Assembly: GCF_002934625.1 (NCBI RefSeq)
Contig: NZ_PTJD01000015.1
Coordinates: 1-64,000, forward strand
Source: Kineococcus xinjiangensis
Lineage (GTDB): Bacteria > Actinomycetota > Actinomycetes > Actinomycetales > Kineococcaceae
Direction of reading: 5' to 3'
DNA length: 64,000 nt
Shown here: piece after piece, positions 44,622 through 58,964 of the stretch
Layout of the letters: every line of letters starts with the position of its first letter
How positions within the stretch are numbered: the first letter of the stretch is position 1
Translations under genes and position numbers: made by a program
Notes under the pieces: generated by a model
Seen by the model: the letters and a program-made list of their open reading frames with translations, nothing else
What the model was told of the DNA's origin: nothing
The model's database searches: none

Positions 44622-45698
44622 GTGCCAGCTCCCGCGACCGGCAGGCCCCTCCTCGACGTGCGCCGCCTGTGGGCGGAGCCCGCCGCCCTCGCCAGCCCCC
44701 GTGGGCAGCAGGTGCGCGGGCGGTTCCCCGGCGCGGAGGTCGTGGAGGTGGAGTCGCACTGGGGCATCCCCGGCCTGCACGGCAACGCCGGCAACGTCGA
44801 GCGCTGGGTCCGGGTGAAGACGGAGGACCTCGTGCTGGGGGTGAAGAAGTCCCTGGCCGCGCGCCCCAACGGCCGCTCCGCGGACTTCATCGCCCCCTCC
44901 ACCGCCAACGGCTGCGCGATGGCGTGCGCCTACTGCTACGTGCCGCGGCGGAAGGGCTACGCCAACCCCGTCACCGTGTTCACCAACATCGACGACATCA
45001 CCGGCTACCTCGCCCGCCACATCCGCAGGCAGGGCCCGAAGCCGGAACCGAACCAGTGCGACCCCTCGGCGTGGGTGTACGACCTCGGCGAGAACAGCGA
45101 CTGCTCCGTCGACGCCCTCGTCAGCGACAACGTCGCCGACCTGGTCGCCCTGTTCCGGGAGGAGCCGGGCGCGAAGGCGTCGTTCGCCACGAAGTACGTC
45201 AACCGCGGCCTGCTCGACCTCGACCCCCGCGGCCGCACCCGCATCCGGTTCTCGGTGATGCCCCCGGCGGACGCGAAGCAGCTCGACCTGCGCACCACGC
45301 CCGTGCCGCAGCGCATCGCGGCCGTGGACGACTTCGTCGCGGCGGGCTACGAGGTGCACCTGAACCTCTCCCCCGTCGTCCTGCGCGGCGGCTGGCTGCA
45401 CGACTGGGCGGAACTGCTCACCCACATCGACGACGTCCTCTCCCCGGCCGCGAAGGCCCAGGCCGCCGCCGAGGTGATCCTGCTGACCCACAACGAGGAC
45501 CTGCACGAGGTGAACCTCGGCTGGCACCCCCGCGCGGAGCGGGTGCTGTGGCGCCCGGACCTGCAGGAGCGCAAACGCTCGGAGAACGGCGCGGTGAACG
45601 TGCGCTACGACCGCGCGAACAAGGGCCGCGCCGTGCAGGCGGTGCGCGACCTCGTGGCCCGGCACGCGCCGTGGCTGCCCATCCGCTACGCGTTCTGA
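44622..45698 (+). CDS. Spore photoproduct lyase family radical SAM protein
   Basis: The 358-residue product has Cys98-x3-Cys102-x2-Cys105 (CAMACAYC) followed by YVPRRKGYANP, which fits the radical-SAM cluster loop of spore photoproduct lyase. Other cysteines, Cys146 and Cys161, are candidates for the hydrogen-donor position. In sporulating bacilli the enzyme repairs 5-thyminyl-5,6-dihydrothymine; non-spore-forming actinobacteria carry relatives of less certain role. GTG 44622 has AAGGAG close upstream. Confidence 0.8.
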   Translation: MPAPATGRPLLDVRRLWAEPAALASPRGQQVRGRFPGAEVVEVESHWGIPGLHGNAGNVERWVRVKTEDLVLGVKKSLAARPNGRSADFIAPSTANGCAMACAYCYVPRRKGYANPVTVFTNIDDITGYLARHIRRQGPKPEPNQCDPSAWVYDLGENSDCSVDALVSDNVADLVALFREEPGAKASFATKYVNRGLLDLDPRGRTRIRFSVMPPADAKQLDLRTTPVPQRIAAVDDFVAAGYEVHLNLSPVVLRGGWLHDWAELLTHIDDVLSPAAKAQAAAEVILLTHNEDLHEVNLGWHPRAERVLWRPDLQERKRSENGAVNVRYDRANKGRAVQAVRDLVARHAPWLPIRYAF

Positions 45699-46750: not shown

Positions 46751-47938
46751 GTGAACGAGTTCCCCGTCCCGCTGAGCGGCGCGCAGGCGGAGACCCTCAT
46801 GTGGGCGCACGAGCACGAGGTGGAGCACGCGGCGCTGAACCAGCTCCGCGGCATCAGCCGGCTGCCGTGGGTGCGCGGCGTGCGCGTCATGCCGGACGTG
46901 CACCTGGGAAAGGGCGCCACCGTCGGCTCGGTCATCGCCATGCGCGACGCCCTCAGCCCGTCCGCCGTCGGCGTGGACATCGGCTGCGGGGTGGCCGCGG
47001 TGCGCACCAGCCTGACGGTGGAGGACCTCCCCGACGACCTCGCCCCGCTGCGCTCGGCGATCGAGGCGGCGGTTCCCGTGGGCTTCAGCGCGCACGAGCG
47101 CGACGTGGACCTGCGCCCGCTGCGCCTGGCGCAGCGGGGAACCGGCCTGTGGCGCCGCTTCGGCGACCTGCACCCCGGCGTGCAGGACCGCGAGACCCGG
47201 GCCCACCACCAGCTCGGCACCCTCGGCGGCGGCAACCACTTCATCGAGGTGTGCGCGTCGACGTCGGGGCAGGTGTGGCTGACCCTGCACAGCGGGTCCC
47301 GCAACATCGGCAAGGAGATCGCGGAGCGGCACATCGCCGCGGCGAAGGTGCTGCGCCACAACGTCGGCCTGCCCGACCGCGACTTGGCGGTGTTCCTCGC
47401 CGGGACCCCGGAGATGGACGCCTACCGCCGTGACCTGGACTGGGCGCAGGACTACGCCGCCCTCTCCCGGGAGGTGATGCTCGCGCTGCTGGAGGGGGTG
47501 CTGCGGCGGGCGTTCCCGGCGGTGGTGTTCTCCGAGCGCATCTCCATCCACCACAACTACGTGACGGAGGAGGTCGTGGACGGCGAGCGGCTGCTCGTCA
47601 CCCGCAAGGGTGCGATCCGGGCGGGTGCCGGCACGCTGGGCCTGATCCCCGGTTCCATGGGGGTGGGCAGCTACGTGGTGCGCGGCAAGGGCGACCCCCG
47701 CTCCTACTGGAGCGCCTCGCACGGGGCCGGGCGGCGGATGAGCCGCGGTGAGGCGAAGCGCCGGTTCACCACCGCCGACCTCGCGGAGCAGACCCGCGGG
47801 GTGGAGAGCCGCAAGGACGCTGGGGTCCTCGACGAGGCACCGGGCGCCTACAAGGACCTGGCGGCGGTCATCGCCGCGCAGGAGGACCTCGTGGAGGTGG
47901 TCGAGCACCTGCGGCCCCTCGTCTGCGTCAAGGGGTGA
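46751..47938 (+). CDS. rtcB: RtcB-family RNA ligase
   Basis: The 395-residue protein has the RtcB signatures: MPDVHLGKG, VGVDIGCGV (Asp76, Cys79 as metal ligands), LGGGNHFIEV, LHSGSRNIG and SASHGAGRRMSRGEAKR, with the His of SHGAGR as the guanylylation site. It joins 2',3'-cyclic phosphate or 3'-phosphate RNA to 5'-OH ends using GTP and Mn. The N-terminus is shorter than in some homologues. GTG 46751 follows AGGAGTCCCCC. No RtcA cyclase or archease gene is nearby. Confidence 0.92.
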   Translation: MNEFPVPLSGAQAETLMWAHEHEVEHAALNQLRGISRLPWVRGVRVMPDVHLGKGATVGSVIAMRDALSPSAVGVDIGCGVAAVRTSLTVEDLPDDLAPLRSAIEAAVPVGFSAHERDVDLRPLRLAQRGTGLWRRFGDLHPGVQDRETRAHHQLGTLGGGNHFIEVCASTSGQVWLTLHSGSRNIGKEIAERHIAAAKVLRHNVGLPDRDLAVFLAGTPEMDAYRRDLDWAQDYAALSREVMLALLEGVLRRAFPAVVFSERISIHHNYVTEEVVDGERLLVTRKGAIRAGAGTLGLIPGSMGVGSYVVRGKGDPRSYWSASHGAGRRMSRGEAKRRFTTADLAEQTRGVESRKDAGVLDEAPGAYKDLAAVIAAQEDLVEVVEHLRPLVCVKG

Positions 47939-47949
47939 GTTCAGGTGCG

Positions 47950-47989
47950 AGCGGTCCCGGCCCGGCGTTCCGTCCGGGCCGGGACCGCT
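47950..47989. terminator. Perfect 16-bp convergent terminator between rtcB and the polyester hydrolase gene
   Basis: Arms at 47950-47965 and 47974-47989 pair perfectly around an eight-base loop, in the gap between two convergent stops. It should stop transcription from both sides. Confidence 0.85.
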
Positions 47990-47996
47990 GCCCGGG

Positions 47997-48878
47997 TCAG
48001 TGCGGGCAGGTGGCGCGGTACTCCAGGACGATGCTGTCCGGCGCCGGCGGCGGGCAGAGGAACTGGTCGTAGCGGGTGTCGTCGTCGACGAACCGCTTGA
48101 GCCAGGCGATGCTCTGCCTCGCGACCGTGGTGTTGGTCGAGTTCACGCTGGTCGGTGCGCTGTGGCTCGCCCCGCGCAGTTCGAGGTAGGCCTTCTCCGG
48201 GGTCGCGGTGAGGCTGCCGTAGAACGGCTCGGCGTGCTGGGAGACGGGAGCGACGCTGTCCCGCTCCGCTCCGACGATGAACGTCGGGGTGGTGACCTCG
48301 GGCCACGTCTTGTCCGTGTTCCACGGGGTGAGCGGGATGACGGCCTGCAGGGAGGGGTCGTCCTTCGCGGCCTCCAGCGCGCCGCCGCCGCCCATGGAGT
48401 GGCCCATCACGGCGAGCCGCGTGGGGTCGATGCGCCCGCGCACGCTGCTGGACTGCGTGAGGTACCGCAGGGCCGCGCGCAACTGGTCGCCGCGGGAGGA
48501 GGGCTGGTCGTAGCGGCTGTTCGTGTCGATGGTGATGACGACGAACCCCTGCGAGGCCAGCCGGGGACCGAGCCACGCGACGCTGGACTGCGTCGCCGTG
48601 AACCCCGGGGAGATGGCCACCGCGCCGAAGGTTCCCGCCGAGGTGGTCGTGGGGTAGTAGATGGTCCCCCCGCCGAACCCGCTGACGCGGTAGCGCGAGA
48701 CCGAGGTCTGGGCGATGGCGAAGGGCCCCTGCACGGCCTCGACGGAAGCGCGCGTCGGAGCCGGGCCGCGCTCGTAGGGGCTGGCCGCCATCGCCGGAGC
48801 GGGCGCGACGAACAGGGGCAGCGCGGCCAGCACGGAGGCGGCCAGGGGCAGGCGGAAGGCACGGGACGTCGAGGGCAT
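47997..48878 (-). CDS. Secreted polyester hydrolase (cutinase/PETase-like)
   Basis: The 293-residue product matches the polyester-hydrolase (type I cutinase, PETase-like) family. It has a signal peptide (about 1-31, cleavage after AMA), mature start ASPYERGP, the nucleophile box GHSMGGGG (Ser161), Asp207 in AERDSVAPV and His239 in GASH. Oxyanion residues are Phe93 (PGFTATQ) and Met162. Trp186 in PLTPW matches the substrate-clamping Trp. Cys275 and Cys291 fit the conserved disulfide of family members (QFLCP…TCP). It lacks the second disulfide and the Ser214/Ile218-type pair of the Ideonella enzyme, keeping His/Phe at those positions (SQHAEPFY). Activity on cutin, PET or PHA is inferred. Its promoter at 48990-49018 and a 105-base leader precede ATG 48878. 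Confidence 0.9.
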
Positions 48879-48989: not shown

Positions 48990-49018
48990 AACCTACGTTT
49001 GCTCTACCACCCGGTCAA
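48990..49018 (-). promoter_or_regulatory. Sigma-70-type promoter of the polyester hydrolase gene
   Basis: On the minus strand TTGACC (49018-49013) and TAGGTT (48995-48990) are spaced by 17 bases. Transcription would begin near 48983 and leave about 105 untranslated bases before ATG 48878. Confidence 0.6.
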
Positions 49019-49135: not shown

Positions 49136-49912
49136 TCACCCGGCAGCCGGCTCCCGCACCAGCCAGGCGCTGAGGTAGCGGGTCGTCCCCGTCTGCAGGC
49201 CGACGAAGTTCTGCGTCCCCTCGACGCCGGCGAAGGGCCGGATCGCGGAGCGGAACGGCCGCGGGATCCAGGCGTCGATGAGGCCGAGCTTGCGGGCGTT
49301 GTCGGCGCGCATCGCCCGCAGCACCTCCTCGGAGACGTCGAGCTCCCGGCGCAGCGCGAGACCCGACTCCGCCAGTTCCCGGCGCAGCGCCGCGACGCGC
49401 CCGGCGGGACGCAGGTCCGCCCAGTAGAGGCTCCCGCCGGGACGAAGCACGCGGCGGACCTCGGAGAGGAAGGCGGGCACGGAGCTGTAGCAGTGGGAGG
49501 ACTCGACGTTCACCACGGCGTCGAAGCTGCCGTCGGGGAACGGCAGGGCCAGCGCGTCACCGTGGACGAAGGACAGCCCCGGACCGGCGCGGTGCCGGGC
49601 GCACAACGCGACGGCCCGCGCCGAGAAGTCGAGCCCGACGACAGAGCGGGGCCCCCGGTAGCGGCTGAGGTAGGAGGCGCCACCGCCGCGCCCGGAGCCG
49701 ACCTCGAGGACGTCGCAGCCGCTCACGTCCCCTGCGACCACGTGCTCGTAGAGCTGGATGCAGAGACGGTCCGGCTCGTCGCGCGGTTCCAGCCGCAGGG
49801 GCGACGGCTCGGGCGGGGCGTACCCGTAGTTCATGAAGGTCCACTCGGGCTGGCGCACCCGGGCCGCCAGCAGTTCGTAGCAGGCCCGCCACGCCAGTCG
49901 CCGTGCGTCCAT
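49136..49912 (-). CDS. SAM-dependent methyltransferase (lipid-type)
   Basis: The 258-residue product has motif I DVLEVGSGRGGGASYL, then SVVGLDFS, a GDALALPFPDGSFDAVVNVES motif II/III and VLRPGGSLYWADLRP. Overall it resembles phthiotriol/phenolphthiotriol-dimycocerosate methyltransferases and related fatty-acid-derived substrates. The actual substrate is unknown. It lies eight bases past the PHA-depolymerase-like gene on the same strand, so the two are likely co-transcribed; ATG 49912 is the start. Confidence 0.82.
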   Translation of the reverse strand: MDARRLAWRACYELLAARVRQPEWTFMNYGYAPPEPSPLRLEPRDEPDRLCIQLYEHVVAGDVSGCDVLEVGSGRGGGASYLSRYRGPRSVVGLDFSARAVALCARHRAGPGLSFVHGDALALPFPDGSFDAVVNVESSHCYSSVPAFLSEVRRVLRPGGSLYWADLRPAGRVAALRRELAESGLALRRELDVSEEVLRAMRADNARKLGLIDAWIPRPFRSAIRPFAGVEGTQNFVGLQTGTTRYLSAWLVREPAAG

Positions 49913-49920
49913 GGCCGAGG

Positions 49921-50745
49921 CTATCGCCGGGCGCTGCCCGCCCGCTCGGGACCGAGGAACCCGCCGATGGCCGCCGCCGCCTCCGCCGCGGCCTCCAGCA
50001 GCAGCAGGTGCCCGGCCCCGCGGACGACGTGCACCCGCGCCTGCGGGAGCAGCGCCCCCAGCAGCGTTGCGTTGCAGACGGGGACGAGGGGGTCCTCCCC
50101 GCCGGTGAGGACGAGCGCAGGGGCCCTGAGCCGGGACAGCCACGGCAGGCTGGACCACAGGAGGGCCGCCTGGAGCTGGCCGGCGTAGGAGGCCGGGTGC
50201 ACGGGCTGGGCGTAGCGGCGGGCGTACCGCTCCAGGTCGGCGGGGCGCCGCGCGAGCCGGCCCCCGAAGAGGTGCGGTGCGGCGGAGCGCATCCAGTTCG
50301 GGTCCGCCATCTGCGGCAGCGTGAGCAGTGCGTACGCGAGGGCGCTGCCGGGCACGGAGCCCACCCCGACACCGGTCGCCACGAGCACGAGGCGCCGCAC
50401 CGCCCCGGGGACGTCCCGGGCCAGCTGCTGGGCGACCATGCCCCCGAAGGAGAAGCCGAGCACGTCGGCGCGGGCGACCCCGAGCCGGGCGAGGACCCCG
50501 GCGGCGATCCTCGCCTGGTCGTGGATCGACAGCGGGGCGTTCGCCGGCGGGCTGGCACCGCAGCCCGGGGCGTCGTAGGCGATGGTGGCGATCCCCGGCG
50601 GCAGCTGCTCCCGCAGGGGCTCCCACATCGCGCGGCCACCGCCGACGCCGTTGAGCAGCAGCAGGGGCGATTCGCCCTCGGTCACGTCCACGGCCACCCG
50701 GTGGTGGCCGATCTCGAGCAGTTCCCGGCGTGCGTGCACGGCCAC
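49921..50745 (-). CDS. PHA-depolymerase-like alpha/beta hydrolase
   Basis: The 274-residue protein begins near a VTEGESPLLLLNGVGGG core, has nucleophile box GFSFGG (Ser99), an Asp in TGGEDPLVPV and His in GAGHLLLLE. It lacks a signal peptide. The blocks PLLLLNGVGG and ATGVGVGSVPGS resemble intracellular poly(3-hydroxyalkanoate) depolymerases, but other esterases share the fold. Its place in the operon with a phasin-like gene supports a role in granule mobilisation (inference). Start: GTG 50745. Confidence 0.72.
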   Translation of the reverse strand: MAVHARRELLEIGHHRVAVDVTEGESPLLLLNGVGGGRAMWEPLREQLPPGIATIAYDAPGCGASPPANAPLSIHDQARIAAGVLARLGVARADVLGFSFGGMVAQQLARDVPGAVRRLVLVATGVGVGSVPGSALAYALLTLPQMADPNWMRSAAPHLFGGRLARRPADLERYARRYAQPVHPASYAGQLQAALLWSSLPWLSRLRAPALVLTGGEDPLVPVCNATLLGALLPQARVHVVRGAGHLLLLEAAAEAAAAIGGFLGPERAGSARR

Positions 50746-50761: not shown

Positions 50762-51505
50762 CTAGAGGGCCGCGCCTCCGTTGATGTCCAGGAGCTGGCC
50801 CGTCACGAACGCCGCGTCGTCGCTGCAGAGGAACGCGACGCCTCCGGCGATGTCCTCCGGCTGCCCGGCGCGGCCCAGCAGGTTGTCGGTCATCAGCCGG
50901 TCGCGCGCCTCCTGCGGCATGGCGGCGGTCATCGGCGTCTCGATGAAACCGGGCCGGATGCCGTTGACCGTCGTGCCGAACCGGGCGAGCTCCACCGCGG
51001 CGCTGCGCACGAGGCCGACGACCCCGGCCTTGGCGGCGATGTAGTTCATCTGCCCGAGGTTGCCCGTCTTGGCCACGATCGAGGAGATGAGGACGACGCG
51101 GCCGGGCCCCTCGGTGCGCAGCCACGGGGCGGCGGCACGCAGGCAGTCGAAGACGCCGGTGAGGTTCACGGCGAGGACCTGGTCCCAGTCGTCGTCGGAG
51201 AGCTTGTGGAACATGCGGTCCCGGGTGATCCCGGCGTTGCCGATGAGGGTGTCGAGACCGCCGAGGGCGTCCGCGGCGTGCGACAGCGCCTCCGTGACCT
51301 GCGCCCGGTCGGTGACGTCGCAGCGCAGCCCCACGACGGTGGATCCCGTCGACTGCGCGATCGATGCGGCGGTCTCGCGGGCCGCCTCCTCGTTGACGTC
51401 CAGCAGGGCGACGCTCAGGCCGTCGCGCGCCAGGCGCTCTGCGACGGCCGCACCGAGGCCCCTGGCCCCACCCGTGACGACTGCTCTGGAAACGCTGTAG
51501 TTCAC
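50762..51505 (-). CDS. SDR reductase (FabG/PhaB-like)
   Basis: The 247-residue enzyme has TGGARGLG (11-18) for NAD(P)H, NAG at 90-92, Ser141/142, Tyr155 and Lys159 (YIAAK). This fits 3-oxoacyl-ACP/acetoacetyl-CoA reductases. It lies 16 bases upstream of the hydrolase gene on the same strand and downstream of the granule proteins, so it may supply or recycle hydroxyacyl-CoA, but a fatty-acid role is possible. A second, separate PhaB-like gene stands next to phaC. Start ATG 51505. Confidence 0.85.
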   Translation of the reverse strand: MNYSVSRAVVTGGARGLGAAVAERLARDGLSVALLDVNEEAARETAASIAQSTGSTVVGLRCDVTDRAQVTEALSHAADALGGLDTLIGNAGITRDRMFHKLSDDDWDQVLAVNLTGVFDCLRAAAPWLRTEGPGRVVLISSIVAKTGNLGQMNYIAAKAGVVGLVRSAAVELARFGTTVNGIRPGFIETPMTAAMPQEARDRLMTDNLLGRAGQPEDIAGGVAFLCSDDAAFVTGQLLDINGGAAL

Positions 51506-51573: not shown

Positions 51574-52251
51574 CTAGGAAGTGCTGTCCTCGACGGCGTC
51601 GGTGTCGTCCTCGGCGTCGGCGCGCCCCTCCAGGAGGGCGATGCGCTTCTCGAGCATCGACACGACCCCCGGGCGGGCGGCGTGCGCCTGCTCGTAGGCG
51701 AGGAGCGCCTGCAGCCGGGGCAACTGGTAGTGCCGCAGCCTGGCGCGGATGCTGGGGAGGCTGTACTCGTCCCAGTGCGCCACCGGCGCTTCCTCGGGCT
51801 CGGGCTCGACCTCCGCCACGGGCTCCGGCTCCGGCTCCGGCTCCGGCTCGGGCTCCGGCTCGGGCTCCGGCTCGACCTCCGCCACGGGCTCCGGCTCCGC
51901 CAGGGCCACGAGTTCCCGGGCGGCCTCCGGCTCCGACGCAGTGCCGGACTGCACCGGGAGGACCGGCTGCACGTCGGTGACGGAGGGAGCCGTGACCCCC
52001 GCATGTCCTGCCTGCGGCCGCGGCCCCTCAGGAGCGGCCCCGGCCGGCTGCGCCGGACGCGTCGCGCCCAGGACGGAGGCGCCGGCGCGAATGGAGGCCG
52101 CGGACCAGCGCAGGCAGAGGACTGTGGCCGCCGTGGTGGCTCGCACGCAGGAGAGCTGCCAGGCGGACATCGCGGCCACGGCGGCCGCAGGGGAGGTCGC
52201 GTCCCAGCCGGTTGTGGAGCGACGGGCTGTGGACCTGCTGGACGGGGTCAT
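51574..52251 (-). CDS. Acidic-repeat protein in the PHA operon
   Basis: The 225-residue product has a helical N-terminus (about 1-60), a linker with EPEPEPEP and VAEVEPEPE repeats (about 110-150), and a helical C-terminal domain (WDEYSLPSIRARLRHYQLPRLQALLAYEQAHAARPGVVSMLEKRI) reminiscent of small actinobacterial granule or lipid-associated proteins; that likeness is from memory. It could be a granule surface or partition protein. Start ATG 52251. It follows the phasin-like gene in the same orientation. Confidence 0.65.
   Translation of the reverse strand: MTPSSRSTARRSTTGWDATSPAAAVAAMSAWQLSCVRATTAATVLCLRWSAASIRAGASVLGATRPAQPAGAAPEGPRPQAGHAGVTAPSVTDVQPVLPVQSGTASEPEAARELVALAEPEPVAEVEPEPEPEPEPEPEPEPEPVAEVEPEPEEAPVAHWDEYSLPSIRARLRHYQLPRLQALLAYEQAHAARPGVVSMLEKRIALLEGRADAEDDTDAVEDSTS
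51795..51900. repeat. EP/VAEVEPEP coding repeat
   Basis: Six-base GGCTCC/GGCTCG units and a repeated block of about 30 bases encode the Glu-Pro and VAEVEPEP repeats of the acidic protein. The second copy starts near 51868. Such arrays can change length. Confidence 0.75.
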
Positions 52252-52339: not shown

Positions 52340-52636
52340 TCAGAGGCCCGTGCTGTCCTCGCCGCCGGCAGCCTCGGCCGCGCGGTTGGCGAGGTCCTCG
52401 GTGAGGCTGGTGGTGCGCTCGACGATGCCGCGGGTCAGGGTGCGCTGCACGTCGAGCACCTTCGCGGCGAAGTCGAAGTACTGGTCGATGGCCTGGGCCG
52501 GGTCGACCTGCACGGGGTTCGTGCCGATGCTGCCGGCGGCGTCCTGCACGGTGCGCGTCCAGGTGCTGAACGCGTCGAGGACGGCCTGCTGGCTCTGCTG
52601 CATGGCCTGGAAGTACTGCTCCTGCAGAGTGGGCAT
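52340..52636 (-). CDS. Phasin-like granule protein
   Basis: The 98-residue product is a single amphipathic helical protein (YFQAMQQSQQAVLDAFSTWTRTVQDAAG..., IDQYFDFAAKVLDVQRTLTRGIVERTTSLTEDLANR) with the composition of a phasin, the proteins that coat polyhydroxyalkanoate granules. It lacks a signal peptide. ATG 52636 has GAGGAGATC just upstream. A strong promoter lies 54-84 bases upstream (52690-52720). It is the first gene of the operon with the acidic-repeat protein, reductase and hydrolase. Confidence 0.75.
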   Translation of the reverse strand: MPTLQEQYFQAMQQSQQAVLDAFSTWTRTVQDAAGSIGTNPVQVDPAQAIDQYFDFAAKVLDVQRTLTRGIVERTTSLTEDLANRAAEAAGGEDSTGL

Positions 52637-55083: not shown

Positions 55084-56865
55084 TCAGCGCTCGTGCACGT
55101 AGGTCCCCGGGGCCGGCTCCAGCGCCGGGTAGCGCTCGCTGCCCATGGGCGGCGGCTCCCGCAGCTCTCCCGACCGCTCGGAGATCCACGGGGTCCAGTC
55201 CTCCCACCAGCTGCGGGGGGACTCCACCGCCTGCGACCGCCACACGTCAGGGTCGCGGGGCAGCTCCGCGCCGTCGAGGACCCAGTGCCGGGACTTGGGG
55301 TTCGGCGGGTTCACGACCCCGGCGATGTGGCCGGAGTTCGTCAGCACGAACCGCACGTCGCCCTTGGGCAGCAGGGCGCCCTTGTAGACGGACTTCCACG
55401 GCGCGATGTGGTCCTGCTCCGCGGCGACGAAGTACAGGTCCTCCGTCACCGCCCCCAGGTCCAGCTCCTTCCCGTCCAGCTCCATCACGCCCCGGGCGAG
55501 CTGGTTCTCCAGGTAGCAGGAGCGCAGGTAGAAGGAGTGCATGCCCGCCGGCATCCGGGTGGAGTCGGCGTTCCAGGCCAGGAGGTCGAAGGCCTTCGGC
55601 TCCTCCCCCATCAGCCAGTTGTTGACCACGTAGTTCCAGATGAGGTCGTTGCTGCGCAGCAGGTCGAAGGTGGCGCGCATGTCGGCACCGGGGAGGAAGC
55701 CGCTCTTCTCCATCCGGCGCTCCAGGCGCTCCACGGTCGCCTCGTCCGTGAAGACGCCCAGGACGCCCGGCTCCGAGAAGTCGATGAGCGTGTTCAGCAG
55801 CGTCCCCGTCCGCACGCGGCGGTCGCCCACGGTGGCCAGGTACGCCAGGGTCGCCATGGTCAGCGTGCCGCCCAGGCACAGCCCGATGACGTTGACCGCC
55901 TCGGCGCCCGTGATGTCCTGGATGACGTCGATCGCCTGCCGCGGTCCCGAGACGAGGTAGTCGTCCATGCGGATGCCGCGCATCGACTCGTCCGGGTTGC
56001 GGTAGCTGATCACGAAGACCGTCAGCCCCTGCTGCACCGCCCACTCCACGAGGCTGCGCCCGGGGGCGAGGTCCATCATGTAGAACTTGTTGATCCACGG
56101 CGGGCTGAACAGCAGCGGGATCTCCCGGACCTGCTCCGTCTGCGGCGAGTACTGGATGAGCTCCATCAGCTCGTTGCGGAAGACCACCTCGCCGGGTGTG
56201 GCGGCCAGGTCGCGGCCCACCTCGAACTGCCCCGGCACGGTCTGGCGCGGCTGCCCGCCGTTCGTCGCCAGGTCGTCCAGGAAGTTGCGCGCGCCCTTGG
56301 CCAGGCTCTGCCCGCCCGTCTCGAACGCCTTGCGCAACGCGGCCGGGTTGCCCAGCAGGGTGTTGGTCGGCGCCGAGGCGTCGAGGAGCTGGCGGAGGAG
56401 GAACTCCGTCTTCGCCCGCTGCGAGCCCTCCAGCTCGGTCGACTCCAGCAGCTCCTGCGAGAGCCGCTCCAGCAGCAGGTGCTGCTGCCGCAGCGCCCAG
56501 TACCAGGGGTTCTGCTCCCAGGCTGGGTCGGCGAACCGCTTGTCCCGCGGGACCTCGCTCACCGGCCCCTCGGCGTCCTGCCCGCCGGCGCGCAGGACCC
56601 CGGCGGAGACCGCCTCGGTGACGTCCGCGGCGTAGCGCAGGAAGGCCGCGCTCGTGCGGGTCGGGGAGGACGCCAGGCGCTTGGTGAACTCCGCCACGGC
56701 CGGGCCGAAGGAGGCGGGGTCGAGCTGCCCGACGTAGTCGCTGCCGGGGAAGCCCTCCGTCGCCGCGTCGAGGGCCTCCTCCAGCTTCTCGCGCCACTCG
56801 TCGTAGGGGGAGCGCCGGGACTGCGCCCCGGCGTCGGGACCCTTGCTCGTGCTGTCGGCGCTCAC
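55084..56865 (-). CDS. phaC: Class I polyhydroxyalkanoate synthase
   Basis: The 593-residue enzyme polymerises 3-hydroxyacyl-CoA into PHA. The lipase-like box GLCLGG has Cys330 as nucleophile, with Asp485 (AAEQDHIAPW) and His513 (NSGHIAG) completing the triad. Length and N-terminal domain fit class I synthases that use short chains, and no PhaE or PhaR subunit is nearby. GTG 56865 shares GTGA with the phaB stop, so the two are translationally coupled. A terminator follows. Confidence 0.95.
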   Translation of the reverse strand: MSADSTSKGPDAGAQSRRSPYDEWREKLEEALDAATEGFPGSDYVGQLDPASFGPAVAEFTKRLASSPTRTSAAFLRYAADVTEAVSAGVLRAGGQDAEGPVSEVPRDKRFADPAWEQNPWYWALRQQHLLLERLSQELLESTELEGSQRAKTEFLLRQLLDASAPTNTLLGNPAALRKAFETGGQSLAKGARNFLDDLATNGGQPRQTVPGQFEVGRDLAATPGEVVFRNELMELIQYSPQTEQVREIPLLFSPPWINKFYMMDLAPGRSLVEWAVQQGLTVFVISYRNPDESMRGIRMDDYLVSGPRQAIDVIQDITGAEAVNVIGLCLGGTLTMATLAYLATVGDRRVRTGTLLNTLIDFSEPGVLGVFTDEATVERLERRMEKSGFLPGADMRATFDLLRSNDLIWNYVVNNWLMGEEPKAFDLLAWNADSTRMPAGMHSFYLRSCYLENQLARGVMELDGKELDLGAVTEDLYFVAAEQDHIAPWKSVYKGALLPKGDVRFVLTNSGHIAGVVNPPNPKSRHWVLDGAELPRDPDVWRSQAVESPRSWWEDWTPWISERSGELREPPPMGSERYPALEPAPGTYVHER

Positions 56866-57596
56866 ATGTACTGCCCACCGTTGACCGAGTAGACCTGGCC
56901 GGTGATGAACGCCGAGCTCGGGTCGGCGAGGAACTCCACGACGCGGGCGACCTCGTCGGGCTCGCCGAGCCGGCCAGCCGGGATCTTGGCGACGACCTTG
57001 TCGAGGGCCTCCTTCGGCACCGCCGCGACCATGTCGGTGGCGATGTAGCCGGGGGCCACGCAGTTGACGGTGATGCCCTTGCGCGCGGTCTCCTGCGCGA
57101 GGCTCATCGTCAGGCCGAACAGCCCGGCCTTGGCCGCGGCGTAGTTGGCCTGACCGATGTTGCCGGCCTCGCCGATGATGGAGCTGATGCTGATGATGCG
57201 GCCGCTGCCGCGCTCCAGCATGTGCTCGAGCACCGCGCGGGAGAGGTAGAAGGCGCCCGAGAGGTTCACCTGGATCACGCGGTCCCAGTCCTCGACCGGC
57301 ATCTTGCGGACCGTCTTGTCCGCGGTGATCCCGGCGTTGTTCACGAGGATGTCCAGGCGGCCGTGCTCGTTGAGGACCTCGGAGACGACGCGCTCGCAGT
57401 CGCTGCTGGAGCCGATGTTGCCCTGGTGCGCGGAGCAGCCGGGGTGATCCTCGAGGAAGCGCTTGGCGGCCTCGGTGTCGCGGGAGTACCCCGCTGCGAC
57501 CGTGACCCCGCGCGCCGCGAGGCGCGCGCTGATCGCCGCGCCGATGCCGCGCACGCCGCCCGTGACCAGCGCGACCTGTCCCGTCATGTCACCCAT
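56862..57596 (-). CDS. phaB: Acetoacetyl-CoA reductase
   Basis: The 244-residue SDR enzyme has TGGVRGIG near 12-19, NNAG at 86-89, Ser138/139, Tyr152 and Lys156 (YAAAK). In the PHA pathway it reduces acetoacetyl-CoA to (R)-3-hydroxybutyryl-CoA with NADPH. I chose ATG 57596, eight bases after AGGAG; ATG 57587 is a second option. phaC follows with a four-base overlap. An inverted repeat at 57659-57681 upstream is a possible operator. Confidence 0.93.
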   Translation of the reverse strand: MGDMTGQVALVTGGVRGIGAAISARLAARGVTVAAGYSRDTEAAKRFLEDHPGCSAHQGNIGSSSDCERVVSEVLNEHGRLDILVNNAGITADKTVRKMPVEDWDRVIQVNLSGAFYLSRAVLEHMLERGSGRIISISSIIGEAGNIGQANYAAAKAGLFGLTMSLAQETARKGITVNCVAPGYIATDMVAAVPKEALDKVVAKIPAGRLGEPDEVARVVEFLADPSSAFITGQVYSVNGGQYM

Positions 57597-57658
57597 GTCT
57601 GCCACTCCTTCCGCCCCGGGCACGACCGCCCCGGGCGCTCTCGTCGTTGTCCCCTGAT

Positions 57659-57681
57659 GGGGCTGCGTGGAGTGCAGCCCC
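57659..57681. promoter_or_regulatory. Inverted repeat between phaA and phaB
   Basis: GGGGCTGC and GCAGCCCC (eight bases each) flank a seven-base spacer, upstream of phaB. It could be an operator for a PHA regulator; a short hairpin is an alternative. Confidence 0.4.
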
Positions 57682-57734
57682 GCATCGAAACCGCGGTGTT
57701 CTCGGGTGGTGCTCGTGAGTGGTGCTACGAGGTG

Positions 57735-57763
57735 GGCCGGCACCCGCGGGGCGGGTGCCGGCC
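57735..57763 (-). terminator. Hairpin terminator downstream of phaA
   Basis: Arms of 13 bases pair perfectly around a three-base loop, 13 bases past the phaA stop on the minus strand. It separates phaA from phaB, which therefore probably has its own promoter. Confidence 0.7.
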
Positions 57764-57776
57764 GGGGCTCGTGACG

Positions 57777-58964
57777 TCAGGCGGAGGGCACGCGCAGCAG
57801 GAGCGCGTCGCCCTGGCCGCCGCCGCCGCACAGGCCGGCGGCGCCGAGGCCGCCGCCGCGGCTGCGCAGCTCGTTCACCAGGTGCAGGGTGATGCGCGCC
57901 CCGCTCATGCCGATCGGGTGGCCCATGGAGATCGCGCCGCCGTTGACGTTGACGATCTCGTCGGAGACGCCGAGGTCGCGGATCGACTGGATCGCGACCG
58001 AGGCGAACGCCTCGTTGATCTCGAACAGGTCCACGTCGCCGGTCCCGAGGCCCGCCTTCTGCAGGGCCTGCTTGATCGCGTTGGACGGCTGCGACTGCAG
58101 CGACGGGTCGGGACCCGCCACCGCGCCGTAGGAGACGATCTCGGCGAGCACCGGCAGGCCCAGCTCCGCGGCCTTCTCCTCGCTCATGACCACCACGGCG
58201 CAGGCGCCGTCGGAGATCTGCGAGGACGACGCCGCGGTGATGGTGCCGTCGGCGGCGAAGGCCGGCCGCAGCTTCGCGAGCATCTCGGCGGTGGTGTCGG
58301 CGCGCACGCCCTCGTCGTCGGTCACGAGGATCGGGTCGCCCTTGCGCTGGCGCACCGGGACGGGGACGATCTCGTCGGAGAAGGCCCCGTTCTTCATGCC
58401 GGCGGTCGCCCGCTCGTGGGAGCGCGCGGCGTACTCGTCCTGCTCCTGGCGGGAGATGCCGAGGGCGCGGTTGTACTCCTCGGTGGACTCCCCCATCCCG
58501 CGCTGCTCGATCGTGCAGAACAGCCCGTCGTGCAGGGTGGAGTCGAGCACCGTCTGGTTGCCGTAGCGGTACCCGGAGCGGGCGCCGGGCAGCAGGTACG
58601 GGGCGTTGGTCATGGACTCCATGCCGCCGGCGACGACGACGTCCGCCTCACCGAGCCGGACGAGCTGGTCGGCGTGGGCGATGGCGTTCATGCCCGAGAG
58701 GCAGACCTTGTTGACGGTCTCGGCCGGCACGCGCATCGGGATGCCGGCGTTGAGCGCCGCCTTCCGGGAGGTGATCTGCCCGGCTCCGGCCTGGAGGACG
58801 TGGCCCATCACGACGTAGTCGACCTGCTCGCCCGTCAGCCCCGCCTTCTCCAGCGCGCCGGCGATGGCGAAGCCCCCGAGGTCGGTGGCGGAGAAGCTCT
58901 GCAGCGCACCCAGCATCTTGCCGATGGGGGTGCGGGCGCCGCTGACGAGGACGGACTTCGGCAT
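57777..58964 (-). CDS. phaA: Acetyl-CoA acetyltransferase (beta-ketothiolase)
   Basis: The 395-residue thiolase has the acyl-accepting Cys88 (NKVCLSG), His349 in [10 protein letters not shown] and Cys379 in LCGGGGQG. It condenses two acetyl-CoA to acetoacetyl-CoA, the first step of PHB synthesis. The position next to phaB and phaC supports the name phaA over degradative thiolases. GGAGG lies five bases before ATG 58964. Confidence 0.93.

Follow-up and report, generated by a model that had tools for sequence, protein, structure and literature searches.

A PETase-family hydrolase with an uncommon active-site rim, encoded beside PHA genes in Kineococcus xinjiangensis

The gene at 47997..48878, on the minus strand of the window (the whole 64-kb stretch of Kineococcus xinjiangensis DNA that was analysed), encodes a PETase/cutinase-family hydrolase. 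The explanation that fits best, and that I hold with good confidence, is a secreted cutinase-like enzyme of the PF12740 family that works as a single gene, on a type I scaffold with an altered subsite II rim, with the adjoining PHA genes as neighbours only. The enzyme is of a common kind, and it is the rim of its active site that is uncommon.

The hydrolase gene and its predicted product

The reading frame starts with an ATG at 48878 and ends with a stop at 47997, encoding 293 amino acids; the earlier note had given these coordinates correctly, and had left the strand unstated. An alternative frame with a GTG start reaches 48944 (315 residues), and a ribosome-binding-like stretch, GAGGAG, was recognized by eye upstream of the ATG. 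Residues 1–31 form a signal-like N-terminus, also read by eye, with a cut after AMA and a mature form of 262 amino acids; this would direct the hydrolase to export. Against the Pfam PETase family (PF12740) the protein scores 397.5 bits, for a cut-off of 28, well above anything chance would give, and the match encompasses profile positions 3–263 of 263 and residues 53–314 of the 315-residue frame. Solved PET hydrolases and cutinases were matched in a sequence search, with E-values down to 1.4e-123. The NF051441 model, describing the BHET hydrolase BdeA, matches residues 22–315 of the longer frame with 489.7 bits, under its curated cut-off of 520.

Ser161, Asp207, His239, Phe93, Met162, Trp186 and the C275/C291 pair were all found at the positions previously assigned to them, as were both motif regions quoted for this protein, including the Ser161 box. 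The Phe-Met-Trp aromatic clamp is kept. C275 and C291 are the only cysteines of the hydrolase, and presumably pair as they do in homologues.

The mature form of 262 residues was modelled with AlphaFold2 from an alignment of 44 sequences. The model has a mean pLDDT of 90.6 and a pTM of 0.92, and the pLDDT drops to 60 at mature residues 211–220, in the block that holds the beta8-alpha6 loop, whose modelled shape is therefore uncertain. Foldseek was used to compare the model to the PDB, and among the 50 matches listed, solved hydrolases of the family are found with E-values from 2e-44 to 9e-37; the top matches listed are a Thermomonospora curvata hydrolase, the Streptomyces exfoliatus lipase, PSH1, an ancestral PETase, PHL7 and PET40. 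A second structural aligner superposed the T. curvata hydrolase on the model with a Z-score of 44.8 and an rmsd of 1.1, over 259 residues. The T. curvata hydrolase (7yko/7ykp/7ykq), the S. exfoliatus lipase (1jfr), PET40 and PHL7 all share the fold (Z 43.2–44.8, rmsd 1.1–1.3), and are 65–70% identical to the hydrolase. The structure prediction that the earlier note had called for shows a resemblance to solved hydrolases, and together with the profile score and the sequence and structure matches it gives good support to the claim of a PETase-fold, probably secreted, cutinase-like enzyme.

The proposed placement in the Thermobifida cutinase group proved loose, as TfCut2 is 58–60% identical, while the nearest named relative among the matches listed is from Cellulomonas cellasea (78–79% identical), which the hydrolase joins in the tree with a support of 90/96. 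That tree includes IsPETase, LCC and TfCut2 as references, all three long-branched; a false-join warning was raised and the bootstrap did not settle, and the tree was therefore used solely to place the hydrolase beside C. cellasea. The end branch of the hydrolase measures 0.37, for a median of 0.15, with many rows equally long and no flag raised by the program. Enzymes from its own taxonomic family are 67–70% identical to it, and the hydrolase is present in 7 of the 11 genomes of that family (E below 1e-100) and in 76 of the 394 sampled genomes of the class (E 1e-60 or better). This kind of hydrolase is common in actinobacteria.

The active-site rim

PET hydrolases have been sorted into types by the features surrounding their active site. 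In the available text of PMC11219463, type I enzymes of the Joo scheme carry a single disulfide and His/Phe at positions 164/243 of LCC, and their beta8-alpha6 loop is not extended, with PHL7, which has Leu at the Phe243 position, as an exception; type II enzymes have two disulfides and the extended loop, and in type IIb subsite II contains Trp together with Ser/Thr. Type IIb has also been characterized by a small polar residue next to the catalytic His (PMC7031157, in excerpt). The loop of IsPETase is three residues longer than that of the Streptomyces enzyme SM14est, which is assigned to type I, and the extension has been associated with a subsite II cleft that is continuous (PMC6779837, in excerpt).

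Sequence alignment places the type I His of subsite II, the catalytic Ser and the oxyanion Met at H160-S161-M162 (48393..48401), and the catalytic Asp207 at 48258..48260, all on the minus strand. On the same strand, the catalytic His239 is followed by Ser240 (48159..48164), at the position of the type I Phe (F243 of LCC) and of S238 in IsPETase, and then by residues 241–257 (48108..48158), which in the alignment make up an extended beta8-alpha6 loop and the start of the next helix.

From His239 to the AWLK motif there are 18 residues in the hydrolase, as in IsPETase. The same spacing is 15 in TfCut2, in LCC, in all 91 locus rows, counting the distant rows L093 and L106, and in 28/28 further rows from a class-wide sample (27 by script, and L135 by eye). 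None of the 117 other loop sequences shares the loop length of the hydrolase, a count that includes repeats (L085/L031 and L089/L007 are apparently the same records) and many close relatives. These rows consist of loci kept from at least 440 relatives and of the best loci from the class sample, where 76 genomes had a match (28 of these loci being new), all chosen by similarity to the hydrolase, and the counts thus describe rarity among relatives rather than across PF12740 as a whole. The aligner places the extra residues elsewhere in the loop in the hydrolase than in IsPETase.

Of 118 rows, this hydrolase included, 7 carry Ser directly behind the catalytic His (6 of the 117 others), L093 and L106 being left out of this count and of the loop-free tree. 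This Ser is present in two other groups, both lacking the longer loop. A quick tree from which the loop was omitted, and which has no bootstrap, requires three changes to Ser, in keeping with its having arisen separately in the lineage of the hydrolase.

The remaining features are those of type I. Ala204 and Ala241 occupy the positions of the cysteines forming the second disulfide (DS1) of type II, His160 is at the position of LCC His164, and the subsite-II Trp of type IIb is absent. The Ser and Ile substitutions of the Ideonella type are also absent, as had been claimed, with His215 and Phe219 in their place. The hydrolase therefore resembles IsPETase in the Ser after the catalytic His and in the 18-residue spacing that leads up to the AWLK motif, but differs from it in lacking the DS1 cysteines, in having His instead of Trp159, and in having His/Phe instead of Ser214/Ile218. 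Of the type I features it possesses the single disulfide and the His, but neither the Phe nor the short loop; of the type IIb features it possesses the extended loop and one half of the Trp and Ser/Thr pair (Ser240), but no second disulfide. The earlier description of a complete type I signature thus stands for the other type I marks, and fails for Ser240 in place of Phe and for the loop of IsPETase length. As judged from the alignment, the hydrolase classifies as a mosaic, neither full type I nor type II, because the Ser and the loop length are similar to type IIb while the second disulfide and the subsite-II Trp are absent. Type III was also considered, and rejected: such enzymes have Gln after the catalytic Ser and Tyr replacing the clamping Trp (PMC13396203, in excerpt), where the hydrolase has Met162 and Trp186.

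Enzymes mixing type I and type II features are already known, in other combinations (PMC11219463, in the text available). PET27 and PET30, from Bacteroidetes, have a long loop with one disulfide and Trp-Ser in subsite II, and CaPETase, from Cryptosporangium, is type I-like with a Trp, having Trp-Phe in subsite II (same source). The combination of His-Ser with a long loop distinguishes the hydrolase from all three. In PHL7, unlike in the hydrolase, the three loop residues are missing and the His is followed by Leu (PMC11219463, in part), and the three ancestral PETases that were aligned in full also lack the three extra residues, with Phe after the His. The loop is also shorter in the Streptomyces rows of the locus alignment.

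Ser240 and the three-residue extension would make subsite II more open and more flexible than in the sister enzymes, a prediction made by analogy with type II enzymes. Alternatively, both may be neutral drift that leaves the substrate range unchanged, a reading to which I give a little less than an even chance. The end branch of the hydrolase, above the median in a tree where many rows are as long, is consistent with drift, as is the presence of Ser after His in two groups without the longer loop. The conflicting results for the W159H/S238F variant of IsPETase, less active in one study and more active in another (PMC11219463, in excerpt), can be read in the same direction. A loop exchange has been tried in PE-H (PMC7031157, in the part available). 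Against drift, Ser240 lies at LCC F243, a site altered in engineered enzymes (PMC11219463, in excerpt), and the loop extension affects the very subsite to which Ser240 belongs. The hydrolase is a ready-made test of which subsite II features of IsPETase matter, as the Ser and the loop length are found here without the Trp, the Ser/Ile pair or the second disulfide, with sister enzymes up to 79% identical that have neither.

Likely substrates

The Ser161-Asp207-His239 triad and the Phe93/Met162 oxyanion pair imply ester hydrolysis by the usual acyl-enzyme mechanism. From what is known of the family, its substrates would be polymers such as cutin or polycaprolactone, or the PET oligomer BHET, while PET itself would be attacked at the surface at most. 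By analogy with the relatives, the hydrolase probably acts on aliphatic polyesters or PET oligomers. The Streptomyces LipA, a BHET hydrolase, belongs to the same family (PMC11169514, in excerpt; NF051441), although the hydrolase scores below the cut-off of the latter model; LipA degrades BHET, and one variant of it roughens PET film (PMC11169514, in excerpt).

A general extracellular lipase/esterase of the Streptomyces exfoliatus kind, acting on lipids and short esters and on polymers only incidentally, is a serious possibility, if not the favoured one, and it is not exclusive of the other readings. One of the closest solved relatives listed is the S. exfoliatus lipase (1jfr), with 69% identity and a Z-score of 44.0, and the family is frequent in the genomes of the class (76/394). 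However, PET40 (65%) and PHL7 (66–67%) are nearly as close, with titles that name a PETase and a polyester hydrolase, and the aromatic clamp is kept in the hydrolase.

A further proposal is that a type I cutinase has here evolved in nature, and independently, in the direction of the IsPETase active site, with Ser next to the catalytic His and the IsPETase loop length on a scaffold lacking the second disulfide, and with better polyester activity at ordinary temperature than its close sisters; I consider this unlikely. A secreted cutinase-like hydrolase with a changed subsite II rim is the reading retained here.

The neighbouring PHA genes

The PHA genes begin, on the minus strand, with a PhaA-like thiolase at 57777..58964 (PF00108, 314.8 bits), followed by a PhaB-like SDR reductase at 56862..57596 (PF13561, 203.4 bits for 56862–57578; start chosen by eye) and by the PHA synthase PhaC at 55084..56865, which is class I-like with a GLCLGGT active-site box (PF07167, 205.4 bits; TIGR01838, 611.8 bits for a cut-off of 622.65). 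This phaA-phaB-phaC set (55084–58964) was possibly gained in this lineage, as PhaC was found in none of the 11 sampled genomes of the family. In 1-kb steps over 40–64 kb the GC content is 0.71–0.78, and is lowest in the phaA-phaC stretch (0.712–0.720), a difference from which no conclusion is drawn.

After PhaC, the genes for an XRE regulator and a GGDEF protein are both on the strand opposite to the pha genes. The minus-strand order then continues with a small phasin-like protein (52340..52636; PF09361, 14.9 bits for a cut-off of 24.9; start by eye), an acidic protein, a FabG/PhaB-like SDR reductase (50762..51505; identified by profile searches), an alpha/beta hydrolase that is weakly PHA depolymerase-like (49921..50745; TIGR02240, 142.7 bits for a cut-off of 250.6), a SAM methyltransferase next upstream of the hydrolase (49136..49912; PF08241, 81.9 bits for the frame 49136–49978; start by eye), and the hydrolase itself, at a distance of ∼6.2 kb from PhaC. 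The acidic protein (51574–52251), located between the phasin-like and SDR genes, has a long Glu-Pro repeat and weakly matches NF033649, a model for lipid droplet-associated proteins (53.2 bits, cut-off 110), which makes it a candidate granule protein. The methyltransferase is similar to phthiotriol dimycocerosate methyltransferase (232.5 bits) and to the fatty-acid O-methyltransferase Mtf2 (210.4 bits), both under cut-off, and its gene closely follows that of the depolymerase-like alpha/beta hydrolase. The latter was found in 1 of the 10 genomes searched (E 1e-20 or better, 38% identity).

The hydrolase seems to be a transcription unit of its own, as deduced from a promoter-like site on one side and a hairpin on the other. 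The promoter-like site, TTGACC-N17-TAGGTT (48990..49018, minus strand), is located ∼110 bases before the ATG; the pattern TTGAC N17-19 TANNNT has 2 matches in the 64-kb window, for 0.10 expected, and a stricter sigma-70 scan returned 0 sites. The hairpin (47950..47989, minus strand) lies between the convergent hydrolase and RtcB genes and is strong, with 16-nt arms that are 100% complementary, at −46.3 kcal/mol with a z of −5.74. It has no T run, and a terminator scan returned 0 sites; it is possibly a terminator shared by the two genes.

From the position of the gene, the earlier note had suggested an organism that uses external polyesters as carbon and stores them as PHA. I regard such a working pair as very unlikely. 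It would agree with the genes adjoining each other, mostly on the same strand, and with Ideonella sakaiensis, which is reported to convert PET to PHA (PMC8497579, in excerpt). To look at relatives, 12 other proteins of the window were compared by tblastn (E 1e-8) to 111 loci, made up of 79 named loci of up to 21 kb, kept from at least 440 relatives, with the rest of 2–4 kb; 59 of the 79 named loci have ∼10 kb on each side. No match to PhaC, PhaA or the phasin-like protein was obtained in any of the 111 loci, the 79 named ones included. The methyltransferase, the alpha/beta hydrolase and RtcB match only the window's own two loci among the 111. Generic matches to the two SDR proteins (8 loci) or to the GGDEF protein (3 loci), at 28–40% identity, are present in 11 of the 79 named loci; they might be taken in favour of the pairing, but were not counted as PHA genes because those families are found everywhere. 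Ten further stretches of relatives, larger or spanning whole contigs, showed no match to PhaC, PhaA or the phasin-like protein, and one SDR match at 33%.

At the level of whole genomes, PhaC was found by neither protein nor profile search in the 11 genomes of the family, 7 of which have the hydrolase. Among the 394 class genomes the hydrolase occurs in 76 and PhaC in 28, and the two occur together in 2, for 5.4 expected; in the second of these two genomes they lie on separate contigs. A one-sided Fisher test gives p = 0.065 with the source genome and 0.021 without it, and since these counts are uncorrected for kinship the claim is limited to the lack of an excess, rather than avoidance.

The genome was also searched for enzymes of PET-monomer breakdown. 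The profile of the ring-hydroxylating dioxygenase alpha subunit (PF00848), the family to which I take terephthalate dioxygenase to belong, had no match in the hydrolase's own genome, while its controls matched in 4 of the 14 genomes. This genome thus seems to lack the usual route through terephthalate dioxygenase. The tannase/MHETase-like profile PF07519 had no match in this genome, nor in any control, so that this negative does not establish an absence. With adjacency not seen in the relatives examined, no excess co-occurrence, a promoter-like site and hairpin belonging to the hydrolase and no dioxygenase found, the pairing is not supported as a functional unit and was rejected as the leading reading; the adjacency looks like coincidence. 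Adjoining PHA genes should therefore not be read as a plastic-to-bioplastic pathway before relatives have been checked.

It is also very unlikely that the hydrolase is an extracellular PHA depolymerase, as the PHA genes next door might suggest, since it belongs to PF12740, with a PF10503 (Esterase_PHB) protein encoded elsewhere in the genome (contig C6), and has no room for a substrate-binding domain because PF12740 covers 53–314 of 315 residues. The PHB-depolymerase-family esterase on C6 (127 bits to PF10503; L126, 997–2292) has no obvious signal peptide by eye, and its contig differs from that of the PHA genes.

On the other side of the hairpin, the RtcB-family protein (46751–47938, plus strand) has homologues in 8 of the 9 family genomes searched, at no more than 48–52% identity. 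Four RtcB-bearing family genomes also have the hydrolase, with the two genes on the same contig but more than 2 Mb apart in G003 and G004, and on different contigs in G008 and G011; the RtcB-family gene was possibly acquired separately. Further along, at 44622–45698 on the plus strand, the window encodes a spore photoproduct lyase-family protein (PF20903, 104.2 bits).
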